From assembly GCF_003691365.1 (NCBI RefSeq), contig NZ_CP033087.1, positions 1,502,501-1,566,500 of the forward strand: a stretch of DNA of 64,000 bases, given 5' to 3'. This DNA is from Commensalibacter melissae. GTDB taxonomy: Bacteria > Pseudomonadota > Alphaproteobacteria > Acetobacterales > Acetobacteraceae. A model generated the notes under the pieces. It was not told the DNA's origin, made no database searches, and was given only the letters and a program-made list of their open reading frames with translations. The position numbers and the translations under genes were made by a program. Positions 53,033 to 58,528 of this stretch are shown in pieces (position 1 is the stretch's first letter; each line of letters opens with the position of its first letter).

Positions 53033-53467
53033 TTAAGCCTCCTCAACCTTCAAGCCCATGGAACGTGCAGATCCTATCAACATACGAACGGCACCATCAA
53101 CGTCATTCGCATTCATATCTTTCATCTTTTGCTCAGCAATTTCACGCAATTGACTGATTTTTACTGTACCAACAGTTGCACCCTTACCAATAACAGAGGC
53201 ACCTTTGGAAATTTTTGCAGCTTTCAATAAAAAGTAAGTATTAGGGGGTGTTTTAGTGATGAAGCTAAATGTACGATCTGCATAAGCTGTAATCACGACA
53301 GGAATAGGCATTCCTGGTTCCAGGCTTTGTGTTGCAGCATTAAACTCTTTACAAAATTGCATAATATTTAAGCCGCGCTGACCTAGGGCAGGTCCAACAG
53401 GTGGGGATGGATTCGCCTTTCCAGCTGGAATTTGCAATTTAATGTAGCCAACAATCTTTTTGGCCAT
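53033..53467 (-). CDS. rplK: Large-subunit ribosomal protein uL11
   Basis: L11 binds the GTPase-associated centre of 23S rRNA and is needed for RelA activation. It has 144 residues: [44 protein letters not shown] and the tail [33 protein letters not shown]. Usually secE and nusG lie just upstream. Here it is the first gene, transcribed from a strong promoter that faces away from a tagD-like gene. Confidence 0.98.
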
Positions 53468-53582
53468 ATCCGGGTCTCCTTAACATTAATCTACCCAGAC
53501 CGCGGTTCACACGAAAACCCAAAGAAAAATTCTTTTTTCCTTGTTGCTAAAGTAATCTCCCGCGTTCCGATATGAAGCTTAT

Positions 53583-53610
53583 TTCATAGTCTTTTTTACA
53601 AAATTGTCAA
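53583..53610 (-). promoter_or_regulatory. Sigma-70-type promoter of rplK
   Basis: On the minus strand a perfect -35 TTGACA (53610-53605) and a -10 TATGAA (53588-53583) are 16 bases apart. Initiation near 53576 gives a leader of roughly 110 bases before rplK. It is the best promoter match I see in the window. Confidence 0.7.
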
Positions 53611-53707
53611 GAATTATATTCAAATAAAATTTAATTTAATTGTAATTTTTTTAATGATTTGTTAATTATTTTATTTTTTTAAAAAAACCAGTATTTAAGG
53701 AATATTT

Positions 53708-54100
53708 ATGACTATTGTTATCACCTATGGAACATTTGATCTTTTCCACATAGGTCATTTACGTATACTTCAAAGAGCAAAACAATTAGGCAACAAACTT
53801 TACGTAGGCATATCTTCAGATGAATTTAATACCCTTAAAAAAAAACAGAGTATTTTTCCTTACACACAAAGAGCTGAAATTGTCAAAGCTATTAAATATG
53901 TGGACGGTGTCTTTGCAGAACAATCATGGGATCAAAAAAAAGAAGATATCCTTCGACTAAAAGCTTCTTTACTTGTCATGGGTGATGATTGGGTTGGTAG
54001 GTTTGACCAATATAATAAATATTGTCAAGTAAAATACCTACCAAGAACAAAAAATATTTCTACGACTTTAATCAAACAAAAATTTAAAAAATATTCTTAA
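53708..54100 (+). CDS. tagD: Glycerol-3-phosphate cytidylyltransferase (TagD-like)
   Basis: This enzyme makes CDP-glycerol from CTP and glycerol-3-phosphate, the activated unit for glycerol-phosphate polymers such as teichoic acids or phosphoglycerol capsules. Its 130 residues match TagD length. TYGTFDLFHIGHLRIL contains the nucleotidyltransferase HxGH motif (14-17), RTKNISTT at 113-120 the CTP-binding RTxGISTT motif (Gly to Asn here), and MGDDWVGRFD is typical of TagD. AAGGAA precedes the ATG. The gene is much richer in A/T than the ribosomal genes beside it. It converges on a glycerophosphotransferase gene, supporting a joint role. Confidence 0.9.
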   Translation: MTIVITYGTFDLFHIGHLRILQRAKQLGNKLYVGISSDEFNTLKKKQSIFPYTQRAEIVKAIKYVDGVFAEQSWDQKKEDILRLKASLLVMGDDWVGRFDQYNKYCQVKYLPRTKNISTTLIKQKFKKYS

Positions 54101-54110
54101 AATTCTTTTT

Positions 54111-55712
54111 TCAATTTTTAACATCTATTAAATTAAAATAAAGTTTTACACTATCAACAATATTTTTAGCAGCTCCTTTTTTAAACGGCATTAATTTATG
54201 AAAAAGCTTTTCTCGTTTTTTGAGACGAACATCGTTTTTCTTATTACAACAGATTTTTCTAACAAGGTCTTGAATTTCTTCAACTGAATGAACTACATAG
54301 GAAGCATTTTTAATTAATTCTCCCATTTCATTAAAAGGAGCATGCTTCTTATTTTCAAGAAAAACCAAAGGTTTTTGCCAAAAGATTGAATACTCTGCTA
54401 AAAAACTAACTCCATCCGTAATCATCATATCCGAAGCTGCCATAAGTGCTCCATAGTCCCCACCTTCAATAATTGTAGCATTAGGCAACAACATCCATTC
54501 TTTGATAAAAGAATCTAATTCTTCTTTTAACACAAGCTTATTATCTATCAAGGTAGAAAATAAAGCTGGATGAGGTTTTAAAACCATTTCTATTTCTTCA
54601 TTTAACCTCACCCATCTTATCATATCCTTATATACTTCCGTAAACAAACCAAAAGATAACCACTGGGATCCAGTAAAACTATGATGAGGAGCCCAAATAA
54701 TTTTAAAAACTTTATTTCGTTGATTATTTGACAATGGCCATTGTGGGTTATTTTGAGCTTCCAATAACTTTTCTAATTTTGGATGACCGGTTACTATTAA
54801 ATTATCACCACCTCTATCATTATTCGTAGACATCTCTTTTTTTGTCATATCGGATTCACAGAAAATCTGAGCACATGCTTTATGAAAATCCAAATTAGAA
54901 TAAAAATTAGTATAATTATTTTGAATATTAAATTTTTTTAAAATATTAAATCCATAATAAGGAACATAAAATAAATTAGTAAAACTTAAAGATTTTGTAG
55001 AATATTCTTCAGGTATATCATTATCCCATGGAGCCTGTCTAAATACTGCATCTGGATTAATATATTTTAAAAGTTGCAAATTATTAATATTTGACTTTGA
55101 AAACCGTATATGAGGAATTTTTTTAAATTCAAAAAAATTATGGCTTTCATCTTCATGTGCAAATGAATTCTCGCCAGGAAAACGTCTTGGAATGGTAATA
55201 ATAATAACTTCAATTCTGCTTTCCTTACACATCATTTCATAAACACTTGCCAAACTATCCCAGGTCGCAATATTATGAACTAAAAAAACAACCTTGATTT
55301 TACGATTGGTTCTTTCCAAACGGGCAACTTGCCTTGATAAAGAAAATATATTATTATCAAGGTCTGTAGATTTTAGATTTATTTTTTGTTCTATTTTTCT
55401 TAATGCAGAATGTAAACCAATTGTTTCTGTAATATTTTTTTCTAGTAATAAATGATGGACTTCGCGTGTCGGCTTATCACAATAACTGCCTAAAAAAATT
55501 AATTTTCCTTCTAAATTGATTTTAATATGAAATTTTGTTGTTACCTGACCATTCAAATTTAAAAAAACTAAATTGTTTTCTCTTATCTCCCACCGACTTT
55601 CATTAATGCAATTAATACCTTTTATTGTATGATCATTTTGTAATATAACATTATTTGCAATAATAACCCCATCAACTCTACAAAAGTAAAATATTTTTTT
55701 CTCAAAATTCAT
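54111..55712 (-). CDS. CDP-glycerol glycerophosphotransferase family protein
   Basis: This protein probably transfers glycerol-phosphate from CDP-glycerol to a surface polymer or glycan. Residues about 290-520 form the TagB/TagF-type domain: GHPKLEKLLEA, IIWAPHHSFTGSQWLSFGLF, EMVLKPHPALFS, the ASDMMITDGVSFLAEYSIFWQKPLVFLE signature, and a HAPFNEMGELI segment. Residues 1-130 are a separate domain I do not recognise, with alternating short strands (WEIRENNLVFLNLNG..FHIKINLEGKLIFLGSY). A short coiled region (about 110-140) precedes the catalytic part. No signal peptide or transmembrane helix is visible, so it would be cytoplasmic or peripheral. It is strongly AT-rich and ends 10 bases from convergent tagD. 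Confidence 0.78.
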   Translation of the reverse strand: MNFEKKIFYFCRVDGVIIANNVILQNDHTIKGINCINESRWEIRENNLVFLNLNGQVTTKFHIKINLEGKLIFLGSYCDKPTREVHHLLLEKNITETIGLHSALRKIEQKINLKSTDLDNNIFSLSRQVARLERTNRKIKVVFLVHNIATWDSLASVYEMMCKESRIEVIIITIPRRFPGENSFAHEDESHNFFEFKKIPHIRFSKSNINNLQLLKYINPDAVFRQAPWDNDIPEEYSTKSLSFTNLFYVPYYGFNILKKFNIQNNYTNFYSNLDFHKACAQIFCESDMTKKEMSTNNDRGGDNLIVTGHPKLEKLLEAQNNPQWPLSNNQRNKVFKIIWAPHHSFTGSQWLSFGLFTEVYKDMIRWVRLNEEIEMVLKPHPALFSTLIDNKLVLKEELDSFIKEWMLLPNATIIEGGDYGALMAASDMMITDGVSFLAEYSIFWQKPLVFLENKKHAPFNEMGELIKNASYVVHSVEEIQDLVRKICCNKKNDVRLKKREKLFHKLMPFKKGAAKNIVDSVKLYFNLIDVKN

Positions 55713-55788
55713 TATGTACCTTTAATTAAAAAATTGTAATAAACATTATATAAATATGAAAATTATTAATAACAATTAATTTTTTGTT

Positions 55789-57294
55789 TTATTTTAAATT
55801 CAAATGTTCATATTGAAAAACACCGAATGATGTTAATTTTTTTTCGGGAAGCCACTTCATATCCCATCCTCCTCCCAATGCAATAATTAGTTTTACAGAT
55901 GCCTGCATCAATTTTGTCTTGCTTCGGACTTCATCCAATTGGGCGGCTAATGCGGCGTTCTGGGCTATAACAACGTCTAGATAAGTGGTTAATCCTCCTG
56001 TATATAATGACATTGCCATTCCCTGTGTCCGTAAGGCCGCTTCAGAGGCCTCCTTATTTTGTTCTAATTCCAGCCGCATCTTTTGCGTTAAAGTAAGATT
56101 ATCCTCAACCTCACGAAACGCATTCAAAACAGTGGAGCGATATTGATCACGTGTTTGTCGGTAGACTGACCAGCCCTTTTGTAAACTTGCCCGACGTAAT
56201 CCCCCCTGAAACAAGGGTAAAGCCCCCTGAATTGCCGCAGACCACATGCTGTTGGCCATATTTGCCAAGCCAAATCCCTTGTCCTGAAAACCACTTGCCG
56301 CGTTAATCGTGATATCAGGATAAAATGCAGCTTTTGATATGCCTATATGGCGATTGGCAGCAGCCATCTGTCGCTCAGCACTGGCTATATCAGGTCGACG
56401 TTGTAATAGAGATGAGGGAAATTCCACCGGTATATTCGGTATATAATCATTTAGATTTGTTTTTACCGATTTTATATGAAAATCTTCGGGAAATTGATTA
56501 ACCAAAACAGCGATCGCATGTTCGGTCAAATCCCGTCTGGCCTGTATCTCTGTTTGTTGTGCCTTTGTAATTGCCATTTGATTTTCGGCACGTGAAACAT
56601 CTATCCCAGCCGAAATGGCACCTGCCTGACGCATACGCGTGATATCAACCGCAGCTTCATAATATTGTATGGATTGGCTTAAAACCTCATTCTGAGCATC
56701 ATACCCACGTAAAAGCATATAACTGCCTGCCAGATCCCCTTCCAGAGATAGTTTTGCAGATTCATAATCAGCTGCTTTCGCTTGAACCAGGTTTCTTTGC
56801 ATCCTTATTTCATTTCTAATTTTACCCCATAAGTCTGCTTCCCATAAAACAGAAGCCTGATATTGAATATTTGTTTCTTCAATTGGAGCATGACTGGTTT
56901 TACTTCGGAATAACCGGTGATGGGATTGTTTATATCTTCCACCACCAGCTTCAAGATTTAATTGTGGGTACAAATTCGATCTAACCTCTCCAAGAACAGC
57001 GCGACTTTGCATATAGGTTTCTGCTGCCGCTTGCAAATCAGGATTATTTTTTTCCAGATCGCTTTCCAGTTGATTTAACACAGGATCATGGAATATCTCC
57101 CACCATGCACCTTTAGGAATCTGATCCTCAGGTTGAGCAATATGAAAAGGGGCTGTTCCATGCCAATTTTCAGGCAGAACATAATGAACAGGTTTGTAAT
57201 GCGGGGCTAAATCACATCCATTCAGAAAAACAAGACATGCCATTAACAAATAACCATATGGTATATTGGCTTTATCTGCCTTCTTATTCCACAT
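55789..57294 (-). CDS. Outer-membrane factor, NodT-family lipoprotein (second RND system)
   Basis: This is the TolC-like exit duct of the second tripartite pump. I choose ATG 57292-57294 (MWNKKADKANIPYGYLLMACLVFLNGC), which places the lipobox cysteine at residue 27 and overlaps the adaptor gene by 11 bases. Upstream ATGs (57309, 57333) are possible, and none has a good ribosome site. The mature part shows PKGAWWEIFHDPVLNQLESDLEKNNPDLQ and LLQRRPDIASAERQMAAANRHIGISKAAFYPDITINAASGF, the two repeated OMF halves. It is the last gene of the minus-strand operon permease-adaptor-OMF, and resembles the OMF of the first system in order of motifs. Confidence 0.88.
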   Translation of the reverse strand: MWNKKADKANIPYGYLLMACLVFLNGCDLAPHYKPVHYVLPENWHGTAPFHIAQPEDQIPKGAWWEIFHDPVLNQLESDLEKNNPDLQAAAETYMQSRAVLGEVRSNLYPQLNLEAGGGRYKQSHHRLFRSKTSHAPIEETNIQYQASVLWEADLWGKIRNEIRMQRNLVQAKAADYESAKLSLEGDLAGSYMLLRGYDAQNEVLSQSIQYYEAAVDITRMRQAGAISAGIDVSRAENQMAITKAQQTEIQARRDLTEHAIAVLVNQFPEDFHIKSVKTNLNDYIPNIPVEFPSSLLQRRPDIASAERQMAAANRHIGISKAAFYPDITINAASGFQDKGFGLANMANSMWSAAIQGALPLFQGGLRRASLQKGWSVYRQTRDQYRSTVLNAFREVEDNLTLTQKMRLELEQNKEASEAALRTQGMAMSLYTGGLTTYLDVVIAQNAALAAQLDEVRSKTKLMQASVKLIIALGGGWDMKWLPEKKLTSFGVFQYEHLNLK

Positions 57295-58528
57295 TGGATT
57301 CAGCCGCATTTTTCTTGAACGAATCATTATCATATTTTTTTGTTACAGATTCGCTATTTTGAAAATTATCATTATATCCTGGTGTGCTATCTACAATTTT
57401 AACCTGTTGCCCATTTAATAACCCAGCTGATGGATTATTCACAATCCAATCCGTTTTTTTTATCCCTGCCAATACCTGAATTGATTTACCAAGATTATTT
57501 CCTAATTTTACCTTCTGCATCCGAACCCGATGATCATTCCCGACAACGGCAACTTGCATACCCTCACTACGAAAAATTAAAGCCTGTTCTGGAATGATCA
57601 AAATATCTGGATCTGCTGGGGTTATAAAATGAACCTGTACAAAAGTTCCGGGCCATAATATATGAGAGGCGTTTTCAACGGTCAATTCAGTTGTCACTGT
57701 ACGGCTGGCCATATTAAACGCCCTTGCAGATGTCAAAAAATCCGCCTGAAAGGTTTTTCCCGGATATTGAATTGTTGTCAATTCAGCCTTTAACCCTTTT
57801 TTCAGGATTGATGCATAATCCTGCGGCACATCTACAAAAATACGGAGTTTATGAATATCAGAAACCGTAAACAACTCGGTTGCCTTACCTTGACGGCTTA
57901 AATCTCCATTATTATTCACAAAATCCCCTACATCCGTTAATCGCGACGTAACAACACCACTAAAGGGGGACCTGATTTTTTTGAATGCCTGTAAAGCCTC
58001 ATACCGGGCCACTTCATGGCCCGCTGCATCCACTTCAGCCTTTTGAACTTTAGCATTGGCGACCTGAACATCAACTTCCTGCTGAGATACCGCTCTGGTT
58101 CCTGACAAGGCCTGCCAACGTTTTGCCGTAACTGCCGCCAATTGGTAGCGTGTCTGGGCAACTTTCAAATTTGCTTTTGCAGCCTCATACTGCGCGTCCA
58201 GACCAGGAGTATCAATTGTTGCCAGTAATTCACCCGCTTTTACAGTCGCACCATAATCCTTGTACCAATGTTGGACATATCCTGATACCTGTGCATAGAT
58301 TGGCGCCTGATACCATGCCGATACATCTCCAGGCAAAGTAAGACTTCTTATCGCTGGACCTTTTTGTGGCTGGATACATTGAACAATGGGAAATGAATCT
58401 TTCCTGGCCTGTTCTGTCAGTTTGACAACATCGTGCTGTCGCTCAACAATTCCAAAAATTGCGTAAATACAAGCGCAAATTCCAATCATTAAAAAAATAG
58501 CCTTGGTTTTTTTTGAAAAGTTGGACAT
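57284..58528 (-). CDS. RND efflux periplasmic adaptor (second system)
   Basis: This is a membrane-fusion protein of 414 residues. Helix about 9-27 (AIFLMIGICACIYAIFGIV) is the anchor. The lipoyl half-motif IYAQVSGYVQHWYKDYGATVKAGELLATIDTPGLDAQYEAAKANL leads into a short alpha-hairpin, then IRSPFSGVVTSRLTDVGDFVN and the barrel domain VDVPQDYASILKKGLKAEL. The C-terminal 35 residues are a polar Asn/Ser/Lys-rich tail (TPGYNDNFQNSESVTKKYDNDSFKKNAAESNVE) that runs into the OMF gene start. It is 3 bases after the permease gene. Confidence 0.9.
   Translation of the reverse strand: MSNFSKKTKAIFLMIGICACIYAIFGIVERQHDVVKLTEQARKDSFPIVQCIQPQKGPAIRSLTLPGDVSAWYQAPIYAQVSGYVQHWYKDYGATVKAGELLATIDTPGLDAQYEAAKANLKVAQTRYQLAAVTAKRWQALSGTRAVSQQEVDVQVANAKVQKAEVDAAGHEVARYEALQAFKKIRSPFSGVVTSRLTDVGDFVNNNGDLSRQGKATELFTVSDIHKLRIFVDVPQDYASILKKGLKAELTTIQYPGKTFQADFLTSARAFNMASRTVTTELTVENASHILWPGTFVQVHFITPADPDILIIPEQALIFRSEGMQVAVVGNDHRVRMQKVKLGNNLGKSIQVLAGIKKTDWIVNNPSAGLLNGQQVKIVDSTPGYNDNFQNSESVTKKYDNDSFKKNAAESNVE

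Follow-up and report, generated by a model that had tools for sequence, protein, structure and literature searches.

The interval between rplK, which encodes ribosomal protein L11, and an outer-membrane efflux (OEP) gene is a variable slot, with conserved borders and alternative glycan-modifying genes across the genus Commensalibacter. In the 64,000-nucleotide stretch of Commensalibacter melissae DNA analysed here (the window, from genome G000), the slot holds a convergent pair of genes for a TagD-like cytidylyltransferase and a divergent transferase (T), which we read, with a probability of about 0.6, as an exchangeable phosphoglycerol cassette that decorates and diversifies a surface glycan. 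The initial annotation had described the two genes; the slot, which is the main finding, lay outside it, as did the exchange in a conspecific genome (G003) and the N-terminal β-domain of T. The features concerned are:

53033..53467, minus strand: rplK (ribosomal protein L11), left border of the slot (PF03946/PF00298; 95-100% identical within the genus)
53468..55788, no strand: variable slot, from rplK to the OEP efflux gene (rplK contexts in G000-G007)
53614..55224, no strand: segment replaced in the conspecific genome G003 (alignment against L050)
53708..54100, plus strand: TagD-like glycerol-3-phosphate cytidylyltransferase, 130 aa (PF01467, TIGR01518, phmmer, motifs)
54111..55712, minus strand: T, a 533-aa GT-B transferase (β-domain, coiled coil and catalytic GT-B fold), predicted glycerophosphotransferase (PF04464, hhalign, AlphaFold2, Foldseek)
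55434..55712, minus strand: N-terminal calycin-like β-domain of T, residues 1-93 (alignment, genus search, fusions, AlphaFold2, Foldseek)
55789..57333, minus strand: OEP outer-membrane efflux gene, right border of the slot (PF02321; the same neighbour in other species where read)

Reading outward from rplK in eight Commensalibacter genomes (G000-G007; rplK was not found in G008), we found T with TagD in G000, T without TagD in G003, a Glyco_tranf_2_4/GT92-like glycosyltransferase gene in G001, in G002 a DUF707-like gene that ends in the β-domain of T and is oriented opposite to the efflux gene, and a PS_pyruv_trans (pyruvyltransferase-family) gene in G005, the slot being empty in G004, G006 and G007, the last of which carries its T elsewhere in the genome. 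All identified slot cargo is glycan-related. No description of this rplK-adjacent locus was found in the open-access literature, which is not proof of novelty. C. melissae has reduced genomes (PMC10149009), and the locus is a small and testable one for surface variation in an insect-gut acetic acid bacterium.

By Pfam assignment, the pair is flanked by rplK/rplA and, at its other end, by an OEP/HlyD/AcrB efflux operon. The two open reading frames converge, as first described, with ten bases (54101-54110) between their stop codons, and the foreign, A/T-rich composition attributed to them is borne out by their being the two lowest in GC among the 56 ORFs of at least 100 aa in the window: T is at 28.2% (GC3 0.19) and TagD at 30.3% (GC3 0.20), followed by a next lowest value of 36.4%, the median being 41.7%. 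The separate control that had been read into the convergent orientation was not borne out: promoter-like matches did not exceed the level in shuffled sequence. No terminator was found between the two genes.

The identification of TagD is supported by a family profile, a match to a solved structure and motifs. The protein scores 90.4 bits against PF01467 and 150 bits (E 3e-44) against NCBIfam TIGR01518, 15 bits under the equivalog cut-off of 165.4, and it is therefore named TagD-like. By phmmer it is closest to the B. subtilis GCT (1coz/1n1d, E 7e-41); it also matches 2b7l, and both the HxGH (HIGH) and RTxxISTT (RTKNISTT) motifs are kept. It thus resembles TagD/GCT (1coz, TIGR01518) in length and motifs, with 45-55% identity to other GCTs, but differs in falling below the equivalog cut-off and in lying outside any teichoic cluster. 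The protein is predicted to make CDP-glycerol, and by analogy to its family would do so from sn-glycerol-3-phosphate and CTP. Strong TagD matches (E ≤ 4e-36) occur in 8 of 299 Acetobacteraceae genomes, bearing out its rarity in this family.

Two genomes of the species were compared, that of the window and G003, whose same-species status is an automated kinship label. The flanking DNA is about 98% identical on both sides (96-100% outside the segment), and in the alignment against L050 the identity steps abruptly at ~53.61 kb and ~55.22 kb. The N-terminal ~160 residues of T are identical in the two genomes; the catalytic halves share ~60% protein identity, and the DNA of this half is 59-76% identical per 100 columns (~68%). 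The T gene is a mosaic between the two conspecific genomes. TagD was found in G003 neither at the locus nor genome-wide, which supports the view, implied by the initial annotation, that the pair is not simply vertically inherited. G000 and G003 otherwise agree in their IspD-, CTP_transf- and NTP_transf_3-family genes, the last equal in number and at corresponding positions, which leaves TagD as the one donor-synthase difference seen between them; neither a hidden second CDP-donor gene nor Bcs1 or TarI was found in G003. Between two near-identical genomes, a donor enzyme and the catalytic half of its transferase vary within a slot that houses alternative glycan enzymes across the genus. We infer that the mosaic arose by homologous recombination. 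The occurrence of T without TagD in G003 would also follow if TagD had been lost by deletion and the transferase had then drifted, with no exchange of diverged alleles; however, the fall in DNA identity at a single point inside the gene, with its return to 96-100% in the far flank, together with an intact G003 ORF whose catalytic half keeps the invariant residues of the T family, makes such loss and drift most improbable.

The reading of T as a CDP-glycerol glycerophosphotransferase stands in part: homology to PF04464 is present, if remote, but the label is weak, the protein is divergent and the histidine of the HGTP motif is not conserved. T scores 17.6 bits (E 0.002) against PF04464, over residues 303-520 only and short of the Pfam gathering cut-off of 22.1; its Rahnella relative scores 22.7 bits. 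With hhalign, a T-family profile built from 59 sequences matches true PF04464 glycerophosphotransferases in the C-terminal donor half (E 2.8e-9, probability 96%), where the second histidine (HP) and the TDxSS-type motif of these enzymes are aligned. At the HGTP motif, which contains the catalytic base histidine (H444 of TagF, H479 of CgoT; PMC11666461), T aligns FYVPYYG and the histidine column is a gap, within the low-confidence, poorly aligned N-terminal half of the profile. The AlphaFold2 model of T (pLDDT 80) has an all-beta domain at the N-terminus as well as a coiled coil and a GT-B fold, and its best Foldseek matches are UDP-GlcNAc 2-epimerases, TarL (8va1, CDP-ribitol complex) ranking fifth. 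PDB sequences searched with T by phmmer and profile yielded no real match, and PHROGs contained no family for T. Judged by its sequence, T is a divergent GT-B enzyme and a remote relative of the PF04464 enzymes. It shares with these transferases (TagF, TarL, Bcs3 and CgoT) the GT-B fold, the donor-half homology, the second His, the TD-S motif and a TagD partner, but differs in its score below the cut-off, its unaligned HGTP histidine, its calycin-like domain and coiled coil, and its stand-alone locus.

Because T is divergent and its HGTP histidine is not conserved in the alignment, teichoic-type polymerisation is not indicated. A polymerase that builds poly(glycerol phosphate) on a capsule or on LPS, the role implied by the initial annotation, would suit the pairing of TagD with a PF04464-like protein, which is standard in Gram-positive teichoic-type gene sets (L150, L187); such a role is, however, very unlikely in view of the divergence of T from the TagF-type base motif, of a slot without primer, export or capsule genes, and of its single-gene cargo, which suggests decoration over polymer assembly. 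The TagD and PF04464 pairs of Gram-positive exopolysaccharide plasmids (Lactiplantibacillus, L150/L187) likewise set a donor synthase beside a presumed transferase, but theirs are co-directional, lie within larger glycan clusters and include a canonical transferase.

Further evidence on the donor comes from the relatives of T. Catalytic homologues are present in 9 of 299 Acetobacteraceae genomes, and 68 T-related loci were retrieved from GTDB genomes with an alignment query, which was needed since a single-protein query found nothing; they span Acetobacteraceae, Rhizobiales, Gilliamella, Erwinia, Comamonas, Herbaspirillum, Pseudonocardia and others. TagD lies beside the T homologue co-directionally in Acetobacter oeni (78 bp) and in G142 (38 bp), and convergently, as in the window, on plasmid p98 of Entomospira culicis (L148 7851-9521), with a 9-base overlap of the 3' ends. 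The neighbour is a Bcs1-like (IspD+SDR) gene in G067, Acetobacter garciniae and Gluconacetobacter dulcium, a TarI-like gene in Pelistega, and a LicC-like NTP_transf_3 gene with HAD in Rhizobiales; other relatives lie in Glf clusters, in several phyla, or have no CDP-donor gene near. In the T tree, the window and G003 sequences are sisters (97*) within a clade of Asaia, G297 and A. oeni, 4 changes are required to explain the TagD linkage and a total of 15 for the five neighbour classes, and the donor class switches within clades. The neighbour classes and the tree provide the main support for regarding T as a CDP-alditol phosphotransferase with a changeable donor.

An ordinary GT-B glycosyltransferase using a nucleotide sugar, or a 2-epimerase-like enzyme, with TagD as unrelated slot cargo, would account for the epimerases heading the fold matches, for the weak match of the Pseudonocardia relative to Epimerase_2, for the unconserved HGTP motif and for the many relatives in Glf/galactofuranose clusters without a CDP-donor gene. 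It accords poorly with the finding that unrelated bacteria repeatedly carry a CDP-donor synthase, of three kinds in all, beside the T relative, with the donor-half match to true glycerophosphotransferases (E 2.8e-9), in which the second histidine and TDxxS are aligned, and with the place of TarL among the fold matches, and we consider it unlikely. T and its relatives appear to form an under-annotated GT-B subfamily, whose members are found with TagD or with a Bcs1-like (CDP-ribitol type) or LicC-like synthase; comparison of close homologues could therefore be used to study donor specificity.

The N-terminal β-domain may bear on the acceptor. Modelled alone (residues 1-94), it reaches a pLDDT of 92 and resembles small calycin-like barrels, namely I38-type inhibitors, at a TM of 0.62-0.64 that is not significant (E 0.07-0.1, Foldseek). 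The alignment and a genus search show copies of it at the N- or C-terminal end of further enzymes, both in the genus and in the family, its fusion partners including the DUF707-like protein, a hexapeptide acyltransferase and a Nucleotid_trans glycosyltransferase, and this recurrence on other polysaccharide-modifying enzymes suggests an accessory, perhaps acceptor-binding, role. In G297 (L057 9547-12428), the T homologue is split, with a DDE/DUF772 transposase gene between the β-domain ORF and the catalytic-half ORF.

In the phosphoglycerol cassette that we favour, T would move phosphoglycerol from the CDP-glycerol supplied by TagD to a surface polysaccharide, with the β-domain and coiled coil holding or recognising the acceptor. 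Two crossovers, one near codon 163 of the T gene and the other in the leader of rplK, would exchange the catalytic half and TagD together; the likely effect of the swap would be an altered surface decoration, and perhaps altered phage or host recognition, with the acceptor-binding end kept. This reading is supported by the family evidence for TagD, the sharp identity steps, the slot variation, the CDP-donor neighbours and the glycerophosphotransferase homology; counted against it are the position of T below the PF04464 cut-off, the unconserved HGTP histidine, the 2-epimerases as top fold matches and the many relatives, including the G003 allele, without a nearby CDP-donor gene. More tentatively, T may represent a recombining transferase, in which a constant acceptor-recognition end (β-domain and coiled coil) is joined to a swappable catalytic half with its own donor-making gene, within a new GT-B phosphotransferase subfamily devoid of the TagF base histidine. 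If so, a single recombination event would let a strain put a different chemical group on an unchanged surface glycan.

In serotype-conversion and O-antigen modification cassettes, a compact, exchangeable unit alters a single substituent on a surface polymer. The pair would be like them in this respect, but here the crossover lies within the gene for T, and the slot adjoins a ribosomal operon and is not a prophage. Phage records contained no T homologue, and a phage-borne cassette is not supported outside one Rahnella relative that lies beside tail-fibre genes on a plasmid.

There is no acceptor gene adjacent to the pair, which also counts against the favoured reading. Galactofuranose was considered as the acceptor, since all five family genomes that carry the closest T relatives (G000, G003, G007, G197 and G297) have glf and none of the three with the other T branch does; it is kept as a weak lead, given the base rate of 124 in 299 Acetobacteraceae genomes, the origin of three of the five from one genus with mostly glf-positive members, and the position of the G000 glf (L164 8421-9575), which stands alone among non-glycan genes, and at the same position in G003.

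Several other loci are of note. The Entomospira culicis p98 pair sits inside a glycosyltransferase cluster. At L085 7743-11372 and similar Rhizobiales loci, a T homologue, a HAD phosphatase, a LicC-like NTP_transf_3 gene and a methyltransferase form an operon-like set, which suggests an unidentified CDP-linked donor. At L054 8967-10733 and L055 9974-11718, TagD is directly followed by a different protein of 423-449 aa, whose only Pfam match is a DUF4214 tail and which may represent a further family of TagD-dependent transferases. Finally, on plasmid pRAHAQ01 of Rahnella aceris (L149 7584-11043), the T homologue adjoins genes for phage tail fibres and their assembly, which may be a setting for lysogenic conversion.
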